A stretch of 46,698 bases of DNA from contig JAKSLF010000024.1 of NCBI GenBank assembly GCA_024401355.1, forward strand, positions 1 through 46,698. Reading direction: 5' to 3'. The notes beneath the pieces were generated by a model. It saw only the letters and a list, made by a program, of their open reading frames with translations, searched no databases and was not told the origin of the DNA. Origin of the DNA: Bacteroidales bacterium (GTDB lineage Bacteria; Bacteroidota; Bacteroidia; Bacteroidales; Marinilabiliaceae). Both the position numbers and the translations under genes were made by a program. This document shows, piece after piece, positions 150 to 6,209 of this stretch (its first letter is position 1; each line of letters opens with the position of its first letter).

Positions 150-234
150 GCCGTTCGTCACCACCTCGGGTGCCGTTCGTCACCAGTTGGGGCGAAAAAA
201 ACGCCGTTCGTCAATAAAAACGGCACTTTCGTCA
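150..234. repeat. Short direct repeats, core TTCGTCA (four copies)
   Basis: The string GCCGTTCGTCA occurs at 150-160, 172-182 and 203-213. A related CACTTTCGTCA is at 224-234. Spacing is uneven (22, 31 and 21 bases), so this is not a regular tandem array. A further CGTTCGTCAA lies at 6094-6103, at the edge of the repeat array upstream of the second ATPase gene. The sites could bind a protein, but nothing shows this directly. Confidence 0.5.
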
Positions 235-248
235 AAAGGTTGGGGATT

Positions 249-2937: not shown

Positions 2938-3036
2938 GGGAATGATATAAAAACAGCAAAATGAAATCGAGGGAATAATAGTGTTTTAAATAAATGAAAT
3001 AACGGGAATGATATAAAAAGATATGGTAAACATTGT
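2938..3036 (+). repeat. Array A: three 33-bp tandem units before ATPase 1
   Basis: Units start at 2938, 2971 and 3004, exactly 33 bases apart. Each begins GGGAATRATA; units 1 and 3 share the first 16 bases (GGGAATGATATAAAAA). Units 1 and 2 also share AAATGAAAT near their ends. The third unit ends on the -33 element of the ATPase promoter (3033-3035). The array may be an operator or activator site. The second ATPase has a matching three-unit, 33-bp array of different sequence at 6001-6099. Confidence 0.75.
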
Positions 3037-3063: not shown

Positions 3064-3085
3064 TATTCAAATATAAGTGTACGAT

Positions 3086-4426
3086 ATGAAAGAGTTGGTT
3101 TTTGAACGAAAAATATACGCCGAAATGCTCGAGTGGAAACAGCAGAACAACGGTCGCAGCGCTCTGATGATAGAGGGGGCTCGCCGTATTGGCAAATCTA
3201 CTATTGTTGAGCAGTTTGCACAAAAGGAGTATCGTTCATATATACTAATTGATTTCAACAAGGCAGGTAAAGATGTTCATCAGCTCTTTAGCAGCAGCAT
3301 GGAGGATCTTGACTATTTGTTTCTATATCTACAAAGCAAGTATCGTCAGACACTATACCCTCGTGAGTCGGCAATCATCTTTGACGAGGTTCAGCAATGT
3401 CCGTTGGCGCGCCAAGCCATTAAATATCTGGTGGAAGACGGGCGATATGACTACATAGAAACAGGCTCGCTTATTTCGATTAAGAAGAATACAGAGATGA
3501 TAACAATCCCAAGCGAAGAGGACCGTTTGGAAATGTTTCCTATGGATTATGAGGAGTTCCGTTGGGCATTGGGTGACAAGTCGACAATGCCACTGCTGAA
3601 GCAATCGTGGGATAAACAGCTGAGTATGGGCGACGACTTGAACCGCATACGCATGCGTGACCTGCGTCTGTATATGCTGGTGGGAGGTATGCCACAGGCA
3701 ATAAATGCCTATTTGTCGACCAAGAGCCTGAAGTCTGTAGATGCGGTCAAAAGAAAGATCATCAAATTGTATGAGGATGATTTTCGCAAACTTGACAAGA
3801 CTGGTAAATTGGGGCGCATGTTTATGAGTATTCCAGCGCAGCTGAGTCGAGGAGTGTCACGCTTTGCTCCTTCATCTGTGATAAAGGGTGTGCCGTCAGA
3901 TGTGATGGCGGATTTGCTGCTGCAGCTAGAAGACAGTAAAACGGTCAATGTGTGCTATCATGCCGATGACCCTAATGTGGGATTGTCTATAGAGGAGAAC
4001 AAAAACCGTTTCAAGATGTACGTCGGTGACACAGGACTGATGGTGACATTGTGTTTCTGGGACAAGAAATATGCCGACAACGTCATATATGAAAAACTGC
4101 TGAGCGACAAGTTGAGTGTCAACTTGGGCTATGTGTATGAGAATCTAGTGGCGCAGATGTTACGTGCTGCGGGCAACAAACTATATTACTACACTTTTCC
4201 CAAAGACGAAAGACATAACTATGAGGTGGACTTCCTTTTGTCGCGTGGAGCAAAGCTTTGGCCTGTGGAAGTAAAGTCTGAGGGCTACAGTTCACACCCT
4301 TCGCTCGATGCTTTCTGCAACAAGTTTTCTTCGAGGATAGATAAGCGTCTTTTGGTTTATACTAAAGATTTGCGTAAAGACGGACATACTACGTTGCTGC
4401 CTGTCTATATGATAGGATTGGTGTGA
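3086..4426 (+). CDS. AAA+ ATPase with C-terminal DUF4143 (paralogue 1)
   Basis: This 446-residue cytosolic protein belongs to the AAA_14/DUF4143 ATPase family, which is much expanded in Bacteroidales and whose role is not established. Walker A is GARRIGKS at residues 31-38 and Walker B is the IIFDEVQ segment near residue 95. The C-terminal domain has EVDFLLSRG...PVEVKS, a D...ExK arrangement like PD-(D/E)XK nucleases; activity cannot be judged from sequence. I chose the ATG at 3086 over an in-frame GTG at 3077 because MKELVFERKIY lines up with the start of the convergent paralogue (MIFRRKIY). The two proteins are similar over their whole length. The stop codon overlaps the first base of a copied 3' cassette, which supplies a terminator. 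Confidence 0.88.
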   Translation: MKELVFERKIYAEMLEWKQQNNGRSALMIEGARRIGKSTIVEQFAQKEYRSYILIDFNKAGKDVHQLFSSSMEDLDYLFLYLQSKYRQTLYPRESAIIFDEVQQCPLARQAIKYLVEDGRYDYIETGSLISIKKNTEMITIPSEEDRLEMFPMDYEEFRWALGDKSTMPLLKQSWDKQLSMGDDLNRIRMRDLRLYMLVGGMPQAINAYLSTKSLKSVDAVKRKIIKLYEDDFRKLDKTGKLGRMFMSIPAQLSRGVSRFAPSSVIKGVPSDVMADLLLQLEDSKTVNVCYHADDPNVGLSIEENKNRFKMYVGDTGLMVTLCFWDKKYADNVIYEKLLSDKLSVNLGYVYENLVAQMLRAAGNKLYYYTFPKDERHNYEVDFLLSRGAKLWPVEVKSEGYSSHPSLDAFCNKFSSRIDKRLLVYTKDLRKDGHTTLLPVYMIGLV

Positions 4427-4455
4427 AGTATGACCTTTCAGGTCGCGAATTGTAA
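4426..4455 (+). pseudogene. Remnant C-terminal tail (KYDLSGREL) of a lost secreted-protein gene
   Basis: Directly overlapping the ATPase stop, an open frame reads KYDLSGREL then stop. This is almost the same as the last residues of the secreted protein ending at 2700 (KYDLAGRKL). No start or body for such a protein remains. It looks like the 3' end of another member of that family, or a copied 3' cassette, joined exactly to the ATPase stop codon. Confidence 0.65.
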
Positions 4456-4548
4456 TCTGCGTTGGTGGGAGACGTGGCGTGCCATGAAGACGTTTACCTC
4501 CGGTCAGTTTCATAGTCATGAAACGTCTCTACAATTAAATGATATGGG

Positions 4549-4585
4549 AACGGACATCTCCGGGTGGGGATGTCCGTTTTCTTTT
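4549..4585 (+). terminator. Terminator after ATPase 1
   Basis: A perfect 10-bp stem AACGGACATC / GATGTCCGTT (4549-4558 and 4569-4578) is followed by TTCTTTT. It separates the two convergent ATPase genes. Confidence 0.8.
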
Positions 4586-4634
4586 GTTATAGCAGACATC
4601 TCAGGATGTTTTCAGATTGTCAATGCTTGAAATC

Positions 4635-5966
4635 TTATATTAGTCCTGTCATATATACTGGCAACAGATTTGTCAGACCATCCTTTCGCATATCTTTGGT
4701 GTAGATAAGATATCTGTCAGCCACACGTTCTGAGTATTTCTCGCAGAACATATCCAATGACTTGTGCTTGTTATAGCCCGACGACTTAACCTCTATCGGT
4801 AATATTTTGCTTCCTCGCGACAACATAAAATCAACTTCGTATGCGTGACGGCTGTTATCGTAGAACGTGTGGTAAAAGAGTTTAGAACCAGATGCCACCA
4901 ACATCTGCGCAACTACATTTTCATACACGTATCCCATATTGGCATCAAGCTTATCACTCAACAGTTTCGCGTATATTTCATTTTCTGAAAAATCCTTATC
5001 CCAAAATGCGAGAGTTACAAACAGTCCAGTATCGCTAAGGTATATTTTGTACGACTCATAGTTTGCTGTCATTCCGAATCCTACCTTAGGGTCACTTACA
5101 TTGTGTGCAACATTTATCGTCTTGCTCTCTTTCATCATGGAGATGAGTTCAACTTTTTTCTTGAATTTGAGATTCTCCACTATATTGCTAGAGAGGAATC
5201 TAGTTGAATTGTTGTATAGTTGTGCCGGAACAGACAGATATATCGACTTGGCATAGTCAGATGAATCTATCTTATGAAAGTCATTGGCATACAAATTGAT
5301 AATGCCACGTTTCACCTTGTCTACCTTGCACAGGTCATTTGTCTCTATATACTCTTTTACCGCCTGAGGCATGCCACCTACCAGCATATATAGTCTGAAG
5401 TCTCGCATCAGTTTGCGGTTTATATCGTCACCAAGCGACATTCTATCCACAAACGACTGGCGTATCAGCTCAAATGTCTCCACATCCCCCAATGCCCATC
5501 TGAATTCCTCGTAATCCATAGGATACATCTCCAGAGTTTCCTCCTCGCTTGGAATGACTATATTATTTATGTTCTGACGAATACTTATTAACGAACCTGT
5601 CTCAATATAGTCGTAGCGGCCATCGGCTACAAGGTATTTTATTGCCTGGCGGGCAAGTGGCAGCATCTGGACTTCGTCAAAGATGATTGCAGATTTTCGT
5701 TTATGCAATGTCACGCCACCCGACAGAACCTTTAGCTTCATGAAAAACATATCAAGGTTTGTCATGTCATTGAATAAATTCTTTATATCTGCGGTTGTGT
5801 TGGCAAAATCGATGATTATATACGACTCATATTCATTCTTGGCGAATTCTTGGGCGACAGTGGATTTACCTATTCGGCGAGCCCCTTCTATAAGAAGGGC
5901 AGTTCTGCCTTCTGCTTCTTTTTTCCACTGAAGCATACGTTGATATATTTTACGTCTAAAAATCAT
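4635..5966 (-). CDS. AAA+ ATPase with C-terminal DUF4143 (paralogue 2)
   Basis: This 443-residue paralogue of the gene at 3086 is transcribed towards it. Walker A is GARRIGKS at residues 28-35. The Walker B segment IIFDEVQ is followed by the family-typical PLARQAIKYLV and DYIETGSLISI stretches. The C-terminus carries EVDFMLSRG...PIEVKS, the same D...ExK pattern as its partner. It ends LLPVYMTGLI, against LLPVYMIGLV in the partner. The ATG at 5966 has a GAAGGAGAT ribosome site immediately upstream, unusually good for this genome. A promoter lies at 5991-6021 inside a 33-bp repeat array. What the ATPase acts on is unknown. Confidence 0.88.
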   Translation of the reverse strand: MIFRRKIYQRMLQWKKEAEGRTALLIEGARRIGKSTVAQEFAKNEYESYIIIDFANTTADIKNLFNDMTNLDMFFMKLKVLSGGVTLHKRKSAIIFDEVQMLPLARQAIKYLVADGRYDYIETGSLISIRQNINNIVIPSEEETLEMYPMDYEEFRWALGDVETFELIRQSFVDRMSLGDDINRKLMRDFRLYMLVGGMPQAVKEYIETNDLCKVDKVKRGIINLYANDFHKIDSSDYAKSIYLSVPAQLYNNSTRFLSSNIVENLKFKKKVELISMMKESKTINVAHNVSDPKVGFGMTANYESYKIYLSDTGLFVTLAFWDKDFSENEIYAKLLSDKLDANMGYVYENVVAQMLVASGSKLFYHTFYDNSRHAYEVDFMLSRGSKILPIEVKSSGYNKHKSLDMFCEKYSERVADRYLIYTKDMRKDGLTNLLPVYMTGLI

Positions 5967-5990: not shown

Positions 5991-6021
5991 CAAATATAGA
6001 CGAAATGCTTCTAATCGCAAA
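5991..6021 (-). promoter_or_regulatory. Promoter of ATPase 2
   Basis: On the minus strand, TATATTTG (5998-5991) is preceded by TTTG (6021-6018) with a 19-base spacer. The -33 element lies inside the first unit of array B, so a protein bound to the array would affect initiation. The expected transcript start is near 5984. Confidence 0.75.
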
Positions 6022-6099
6022 ATTCAAAACATGAAAAGTGCCCCTAATCGCAAATTTTAAAGTACTAAAAATGCTTCTAATCGCAAAATTTGTCGTTCG
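6001..6099 (-). repeat. Array B: three 33-bp tandem units before ATPase 2
   Basis: Units begin at 6001, 6034 and 6067 (plus coordinates), exactly 33 bases apart. The shared plus-strand core is TGCYYCTAATCGCAAA; CTAATCGCAAA recurs at 6011, 6044 and 6077. The sequence is unrelated to array A, but copy number, period and position relative to the promoter are the same. CGTTCGTCAA (6094-6103), also found at 150-213, overlaps the distal end. Confidence 0.8.
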
Positions 6100-6209
6100 T
6101 CAATGAAAGGGGATCTTAGTCAAAATCCTTACTAAAATACGCTCCAGTGCGTCGCTTATTGGACGATTTTGAGGGGTCGCCCTTCGTTGTTTGAGCCGAA
6201 GGCAATCAA

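Follow-up and report, generated by a model that had tools for sequence, protein, structure and literature searches.

Two convergent genes in the 46,698-nucleotide stretch of a Bacteroidales genome analyzed here (the window) code for ATPases with a nuclease-like domain (ATPase 1 and ATPase 2, 57% identical), and upstream of each lie three tandem units of 33 bp. Arrays of this kind are nearly restricted to these ATPase genes, are phased with their promoters, and vary in sequence together with the protein encoded next to them. From these comparisons we infer, with a probability of about 0.7, that the ATPase binds its own array as a private operator and represses its own gene. The features of the locus are collected in Table 1.

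Table 1. Coordinates of the two ATPase loci in the window
Feature	Positions	Strand	Basis or remark
ATPase 2, 443 aa: AAA_14, middle domain, and DUF4143 nuclease-like domain	4635..5966	-	Pfam, PADLOC
PD-(D/E)XK catalytic motif E377, D379, E392, K394 (codons 377 to 394)	4785..4838	-	motif
Predicted DNA-reading loop, codons of residues 364 to 376 (D370, R373), before EVD	4839..4877	-	co-variation
Middle domain, codons 238 to 272, predicted reader of the second core half	5151..5255	-	window scan
-7 promoter element TATATTTG, TAnnTTTG type	5991..5998	-	sequence
Array B, three 33-bp units, overlapping the promoter and reaching upstream of it	5993..6091	-	triple-repeat scan
Core copy 1, promoter proximal, AATTTTGCGATTAGAAGC on the minus strand, contains the -33 TTTG	6007..6024	-	-58 from ATG
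Core copy 2 of array B	6040..6057	-	-91 from ATG
Core copy 3 of array B	6073..6090	-	-124 from ATG
ATPase 1, 449 aa from GTG, 446 from the ATG at 3086	3077..4426	+	AAA_14 and DUF4143 family
Array A, three 33-bp units, GGGAATGATATAAAAA-type blocks starting at 2938, 2971, and 3004	2938..3036	+	reading, lag 33

The only Pfam domains found in ATPase 2 at an E value of ≤0.001 were AAA_14 (E = 1.2e-21) and DUF4143 (E = 3.6e-17). Both window ATPases belong to PDC-S01, the PADLOC family in which an ATPase is fused to a PD-(D/E)XK domain, as they match its profile over nearly their full lengths (residues 3 to 442 of ATPase 2 with an E value of 6.7e-95 and residues 9 to 448 of ATPase 1 with one of 6.8e-97) and carry both domains with intact motifs. 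We take DUF4143 to be PD-(D/E)XK-like from the motif, and residues 238 to 272, which lie between the AAA domain and the nuclease domain, are presumably winged-helix-like. The four catalytic residues of the nuclease motif together with K34, D97, and E98 were intact in 151 of 155 members of the clade described below; the protein thus probably does more than repress. No NCBIfam family was assigned, a sequence search yielded no solved homologue at an E value of 0.1, and a profile search of the PDB with E values up to 1 returned a UPF0102 protein (0.18) and SRP72 (0.38) but no initiator structure. The neighboring genes in the window code for a transporter and a helicase-like protein.

Array B was the top triple repeat in the whole window (periods of 25 to 44 bp), with a self-lag score of 30 (cut-off for counting, 18), and Tandem Repeats Finder (TRF) called it at 6003 to 6090 (period of 33, 2.7 copies, score of 99). 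Its units share the block TGCYYCTAATCGCAAA at 6006 to 6021, 6039 to 6054, and 6072 to 6087. A sequence-only reading of this DNA had proposed three period-33 units upstream of ATPase 2, starting at 6001, 6034, and 6067 and overlapping the promoter. Period and copy number were borne out by both searches, while the last nine bases of that interval (6091 to 6099) fall outside the TRF call; phased from 6001, the units are identical in pairs at 22, 23, and 24 of 33 bases, and pairwise matching is highest, at 73 of 99, when the phasing begins at 5993. The overlap also holds, as the -33-type TTTG at 6018 to 6021 is located inside the promoter-proximal unit, 19 bp from TATATTTG on the minus strand. By reading, a GTTCGTCA-type repeat adjoins array B at 6091 to 6108, outside the 33-bp array, and the same type is intergenic at window positions 150 to 235 and upstream of the related ATPase loci L007 and L105.

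Array A (start near 2926, period of 33) ranked second among the triple repeats of the window. Its self-lag score of 16 is just under the cut-off, and it was excluded from the array counts given below; a motif scan recovered the first and third blocks, and all three were recognized by reading. Both ATPase loci thus have three copies of a 33-bp unit of different sequence, as the sequence-only reading had stated. Two similar intergenic stretches (2703 to 2870 and 4455 to 4615), each with a GGATGTCCGTTT...GTTATAGCAGACATCTCAGGATG block recognized by reading, flank ATPase 1 and its array, as might result from insertion or duplication of this cassette between dispersed repeat copies.

With up to one mismatch, TGCYYCTAATCGCAAA has three matches in its own 2.9-Mb genome (85% complete), all of them at array B, and a genome-wide regulon was therefore rejected, the core being confined to its own array. 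An exact pattern search for the unit pair of array B in viral contigs gave no match. A CRISPR array was likewise discarded, given units with 22 to 24 of 33 bases identical and no conserved neighbor in 80 clade loci. A replication origin or the remnant of an iteron plasmid was also considered and set aside.

To evaluate how widespread these arrays are, we compared the ATPase genes of the genus with other genes of the same loci. ATPase matches were present in 14 of the 15 genomes (141 ORFs, 126 after removing repeats, of which 123 had at least 200 bp upstream; nine low-scoring or fragment matches were left out). Scanning lags of 15 to 70 bp, a score of at least 18 was reached by 92 of 123 ATPase genes versus 23 of 763 control genes (785 before removal of 22 that share an upstream region with an ATPase), so that arrays are not equally common at unrelated genes, an outcome that would have counted against the sequence-only reading. 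The remaining 31 ATPases, with array A among them, scored under 18. A period of 31 to 34 bp occurred in only three of the 763 control genes, all located 200 to 393 bp from an ATPase gene, and among first-order Markov shuffles 1 of 615 reached 18 and 1 of 615 reached 20. The strongest control array not belonging to an ATPase consists of 22-bp AATAACGATATAACG units upstream of a lipoprotein-like ORF (L069:1939-3108, minus strand).

The period was 32 to 34 bp in 73 of the 94 arrays of the full genus set (126 ORFs). Strict quantization by helical turns was rejected; periods of 22 to 23, 42 to 44, and 52 bp occur too, but seven arrays at 39 to 40 bp do not fit. Ten ATPase genes of this kind are present in the genome of the window, seven with a best self-lag of 33 bp and two with one of 32 bp, the units differing from gene to gene; the tenth (L007) has no clear array, and evidence was weaker for ATPase 1 (L004), L005, and L010, with scores of 16, 20, and 19. 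Mixed spacings within one array were also seen, for example 33-19(-33) or 33-29/30-33 bp (L064, L066, and L070; L088, L126, L142, L156, and L193).

Arrays are not a property of every DUF4143 gene. They were found in 2 of 30 loci of a phylum-wide sample of the best-scoring Pfam matches (L202 to L231), which indicates that they mark some subfamilies. Inverted repeats (at least 14 of 16 bases matching, within 120 bp upstream) were present at 11 of 29 array-less ATPases of the genus and at 12 of 30 loci of the phylum sample, compared to 25 of 465 control genes and none of 177 shuffles. Since they are commoner than in controls and shuffles, some ATPase genes without a tandem array seem to use a palindromic site instead, possibly a second style of operator. 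Large inverted repeats or palindromic cores were noticed at the promoters of L016, L020, L025, L039, L042, L083, L009, and L115, most of which have no clear 33-bp array.

The relatives closest to ATPase 2 were analyzed as a clade, assembled from the best 80 of 514 relatives in named genomes plus the genus members; the relatives are labeled mostly Bacteroidales, with some Bacillota and Spirochaetota. Leaving out members with less than 110 bp upstream reduced it from 90 to 88. A chain search, which here and in the sets that follow allowed only spacings of 29 to 37 bp, found arrays in 82 of the 88 members versus 8 of 88 shuffled upstream regions, and in 104 of the 111 new relatives whose upstream DNA was long enough versus 13 of 111 shuffled ones; 20 of 465 control genes passed. 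In a second clade (L005-like, L386 to L455; 67 proteins, 63 after removing those >90% identical), 61 of 63 passed, with a spacing of 33 bp in 129 of 146 steps (29 to 37 bp allowed), and 10 of 61 passed after shuffling, a comparison limited to the 61 already passing. At a stricter chain score of 9, the counts were 69 of 88, 100 of 111, and 51 of 61 for the clade, the new relatives, and the second clade, respectively, against 1 of 88, 1 of 111, and 1 of 61 for shuffles and 2 of 465 for control genes. Two Bacillota-labeled members (L152 and L201) have no array.

Aligned cores consist of an A/T-rich flank, a variable part of the kind TGCG, TGAG, or CGGG, and a still more variable tail. The orthologues L090 and L091 (96 to 97% identical) retain the core of ATPase 2; the core differs in ATPase 1, which is 57% identical. 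The units are imperfect (22 to 24 of 33 bases identical), as might be expected of repeats that arose by chance or slippage and serve no function, yet such an origin is hardly tenable in view of their rarity in shuffles and at other genes, a spacing that stays mostly at 32 to 34 bp while the sequence changes, and the retention of cores by orthologues.

The sequence-only reading had suggested asking whether the array co-varies with the N- or C-terminal domain of the ATPase, and would have been contradicted if the unit had no link to paralogue identity. Such a link was found. Across 72 proteins (the 82 of the clade after removing those >90% identical), core similarity tracks protein similarity with a Mantel r of 0.28, a value not attained in any of 1,000 permutations. 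The top among 443 by 20 residue-base pairs was D370 with core column 10 (z of 17.4 against label shuffles, which ignore ancestry); in the same ancestry-uncorrected scan, the AAA positions A55, A38, I133, and V137 also had high MI with column 10. The association can be written as a simple rule, by which K or R at residue 370 goes with G at core column 10, D or N with C, and T with A. Both window ATPases, which were in the training set, fit it (ATPase 2 with D370 and C, ATPase 1 with K370 and G).

With the rule fixed, it was applied to new relatives with at most 90% identity and at least 52% identity to ATPase 2 and was correct in 49 of 64, compared to a mean of 21.7 and a maximum of 36 in 10,000 permutations that ignore ancestry. 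The new set had 132 proteins, or 112 after removing those >90% identical, from which one with a short upstream region and seven without an array were removed; the count of 49 of 64 leaves out 21 arrays of proteins below 52% identity and 19 with residues outside the rule. With the proteins under 52% identity included, the score was 55 of 76. Eleven of the 15 failures have T370. When all 155 members were pooled (training and new), K370 went with G in 44 of 46, R370 with G in 4 of 4, D370 with C in 17 of 18, and N370 with C in 6 of 7. In the same pooled set, T370 together with K373 went with A in 29 of 32, and T373 with T at column 11 in 9 of 9; T370 was ambiguous with N or R at residue 373 (C in seven, G in four, T in three, and A in two).

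To locate the protein regions involved, each base was predicted from the most similar 8-residue window, excluding proteins >70% identical. Two segments predicted the unit best, namely, the loop at 364 to 379 before the nuclease motif and the middle domain at 238 to 272. For columns 8 to 13, each best window starts at residues 369 to 372, and for columns 14 to 17 and 19 the best windows lie within 238 to 271, with column 18 unpredicted. The accuracy for column 10 was 0.76; the whole protein reached 0.58, the best permutation 0.49, and the commonest base 0.43. Columns 8, 10, 11, 12, 14, 15, 16, and 19 exceeded the best of 100 permutations (ancestry ignored), columns 14 and 15 barely so, while columns 9, 13, 17, and 18 did not. 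Of the two ends of the protein considered in the sequence-only reading, it is thus the C-terminal side, with the DUF4143 loop, and in addition the middle domain that co-vary with the array, and not the AAA windows at ≤70% identity.

A test based on a tree built without residues 365 to 377 compared 23 independent pairs differing at column 10 with 23 that do not. Seven protein columns, including S372 and D370, tied for the top excess. Of the top 10 of 443 positions, 5 fall in 364 to 374, and the AAA positions M68 and M73 were also among the 10. The excess at residue 370 was modest (15 of 23 versus 8 of 23).

The second clade shows a similar pattern. Columns 7, 8, and 11 were best predicted by windows within 356 to 370, before the EVDF that starts at 367, and column 6 by the window at 244 to 251, in the same middle region, and these four columns were above all 200 permutations (ancestry ignored). 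Column 5 points to 240 to 247, though not above every permutation, and columns 10, 4, and 17 point elsewhere (211 to 218, 430 to 437, and 321 to 328, respectively). The orientation of the core to the gene is apparently reversed relative to the ATPase 2 clade, and despite this reversal the two clades seem, from these comparisons, to use the same two protein parts to read the core.

These results bear on another possible explanation, in which a separate regulator binds the arrays and the co-variation of the ATPase reflects the shared ancestry of neighboring DNA. Array and gene are adjacent and co-inherited, orthologues share cores, and uncorrected MI also marked AAA positions, all of which would be expected in that case. 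However, two short protein segments are the best predictors, and the signal outlasts the exclusion of proteins >70% identical, the out-of-sample test, and, modestly, the tree-based test, and recurs in the second clade. In addition, no conserved neighbor gene that could be such a regulator was found in the 80 clade loci, the next cluster being present in 7 of 80. We consider a separate regulator very unlikely. The proposal of the sequence-only reading that each ATPase reads its own repeat is thus supported by co-variation and family restriction, with binding and repression as its presumptive steps. Cores of paralogues from the same genome were no more divergent than those of identity-matched pairs (2 versus 2.2 expected, 64 pairs), and active avoidance of cross talk between paralogues was set aside for want of this excess.

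Promoters were predicted here by motif, taking TAnnTTTG and the -33 TTTG as the Bacteroides promoter consensus. Within the last 75 bp, 130 of 155 clade members have TAnnTTTG, versus 6.9% of shuffles, and 25 lack it. It was phase-locked to the array in 111 of the 130 and out of phase in 19; in 86 members it starts 28 to 30 bp past the beginning of the last core, and in 25 it starts one unit further, at 61 to 63 bp. The offset of 28 to 30 bp puts the position of the -33 TTTG inside the last core. Visual inspection covered ten upstream regions labeled Bacillota or Spirochaetota, eight of them Bacillota. Seven of these eight have a core located between -35-like and -10-like boxes (the -35 is weak in L172), with further units running toward the ATG, and in the eighth (L158) the cores are downstream of the -10. 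Core orientation was with the gene at 476 sites and against it at 11, but the search for cores was made on the coding strand, which biases this count. The repeats therefore overlap the predicted promoter of the ATPase's own gene, as direct-repeat operators do, and both layouts, with the -33 box in the last core or the core between -35 and -10, fit exclusion of RNA polymerase.

It is also conceivable that the array activates the gene, with ATPase bound at the upstream units recruiting or remodeling RNA polymerase. The protein is an ATPase, and wherever the last core contains the -33 box, as in the window, the other units are located upstream of the promoter, as activation would have it. Nevertheless, the coincidence of the last core with the -33 box, and the Bacillota units in the spacer and downstream toward the ATG, are a better fit to polymerase exclusion, and activation appears quite improbable.

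In the self-repression that we favor, the ATPase-nuclease would bind one core per 33-bp unit. As 33 bp is about three helix turns, bound copies would line up along the same side of the double helix; this one-face geometry, like any role in phage defense, is inferred. The loop before the catalytic motif would read the first core half (columns 8 to 13) and the middle domain the second (columns 14 to 19), next to an A/T-rich flank common to the clade. With the -33 box inside the promoter-proximal core, bound ATPase and RNA polymerase would be mutually exclusive and the gene would repress itself, expression rising once the ATPase is removed, occupied, or inhibited. Differences between paralogues in the loop and middle domain would give different arrays, which might allow many such genes to coexist in one genome.

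A further possibility is that the ATPase reads its array mainly to hold or address its nuclease (for docking, as a decoy, or for cleavage), control of transcription being secondary. The best-supported loop (364 to 376) adjoins the catalytic E377 and D379, and the conservation of nuclease and ATPase residues in 151 of 155 members goes beyond the needs of a mere repressor, although a docking site alone would require neither the phase-lock to the promoter (111 of 130) nor a core flanked by the -35 and -10 boxes, as in 7 of 8 Bacillota loci. We regard this priority as unlikely. More tentatively than self-repression itself, and still as a rather doubtful proposition, one may imagine a self-addressed nuclease cassette, in which the array would be both the repressor site and the specific substrate or safe harbor of the nuclease. 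The loop bordering the nuclease active site would then read the array, as lock and key with the gene; the protein parked on it would be inactive until a phage or a rival cassette disturbs the arrangement, and once released or overproduced it might act on DNA. If so, a genome could hold up to about twenty separately addressed defense switches, with addresses legible from the loop sequence.

The interest of these findings lies in a very common, uncharacterized ATPase-nuclease gene, a candidate for phage defense, that often has seemingly private 33-bp repeats across its promoter. If self-repression is the right reading, the promoter of such a gene displays the DNA sequence that its protein recognizes. 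A reporter assay would then be at hand, nature would supply many matched pairs of protein and site, and a nuclease-fused ATPase would follow a simple residue-base rule. Self-repression might also set the readiness of the family, which would be a testable route to finding its trigger.

Tandem, helically phased sites beside the gene of their binder, with autorepression, are familiar from iteron-binding plasmid Rep proteins and autorepressing antitoxins, which belong to protein families other than the ATPase-nucleases. Cdc6, an AAA+ protein, is not known to carry a nuclease domain, and an Orc1/Cdc6 initiator was rejected for the window ATPases, with AAA_14 and DUF4143 alone in Pfam and no initiator structure in the PDB profile search. 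In the accessible text of the respective sources, PDC-S01 is the fourth most common defense candidate in prokaryotes (PMC12988326) and the most frequent individual defense locus in a rumen survey (PMC13356809), and a Thermus AAA_14-DUF4143 gene, TT_P0211, is listed in an expression table (PMC4406477). Upstream arrays, self-recognition, and a residue-base rule do not figure in the available parts of the PDC-S01 descriptions, and no test of phage protection was found in the available portions of the literature on it. The literature searched, which excludes preprints and most subscription journals, gave no account of the mechanism or control of PDC-S01 and, within the same scope, did not describe private arrays, self-recognition, or a residue-base rule for it. 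Private arrays and the residue-base rule in PDC-S01 may thus be new, on evidence that is weak because of that scope.

The general principles are already known, both for defense genes under a repressor acting on three direct repeats and for paralogues tied to a co-located DNA site. For the latter, as far as the accessible text goes, individual origins of Haloarcula hispanica depend specifically on co-located cdc6 genes (PMC3936714). The likeness lies in paralogues encoded beside the DNA site that they serve, whereas the haloarchaeal case concerns replication origins and initiators. For the former, the accessible text on RptR describes a repressor of a defense island that controls defense genes and represses its own promoter via three direct repeats overlapping a promoter box (PMC12255303), and it is in these three direct repeats over the promoter of the regulator's own gene that the window loci resemble it. 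RptR is, in the same text, a dedicated 9-kDa repressor with 9-bp repeats around a 6-bp palindrome (PMC12255303), and membership in its family was rejected for a 443-aa AAA_14-DUF4143 protein whose core, AATTTTGCGATTAGAAGC, does not contain TAGCTA. Unlike RptR, the window ATPases combine the putative effector and the proposed reader in one protein, with a unit of 33 bp whose sequence varies between paralogues.
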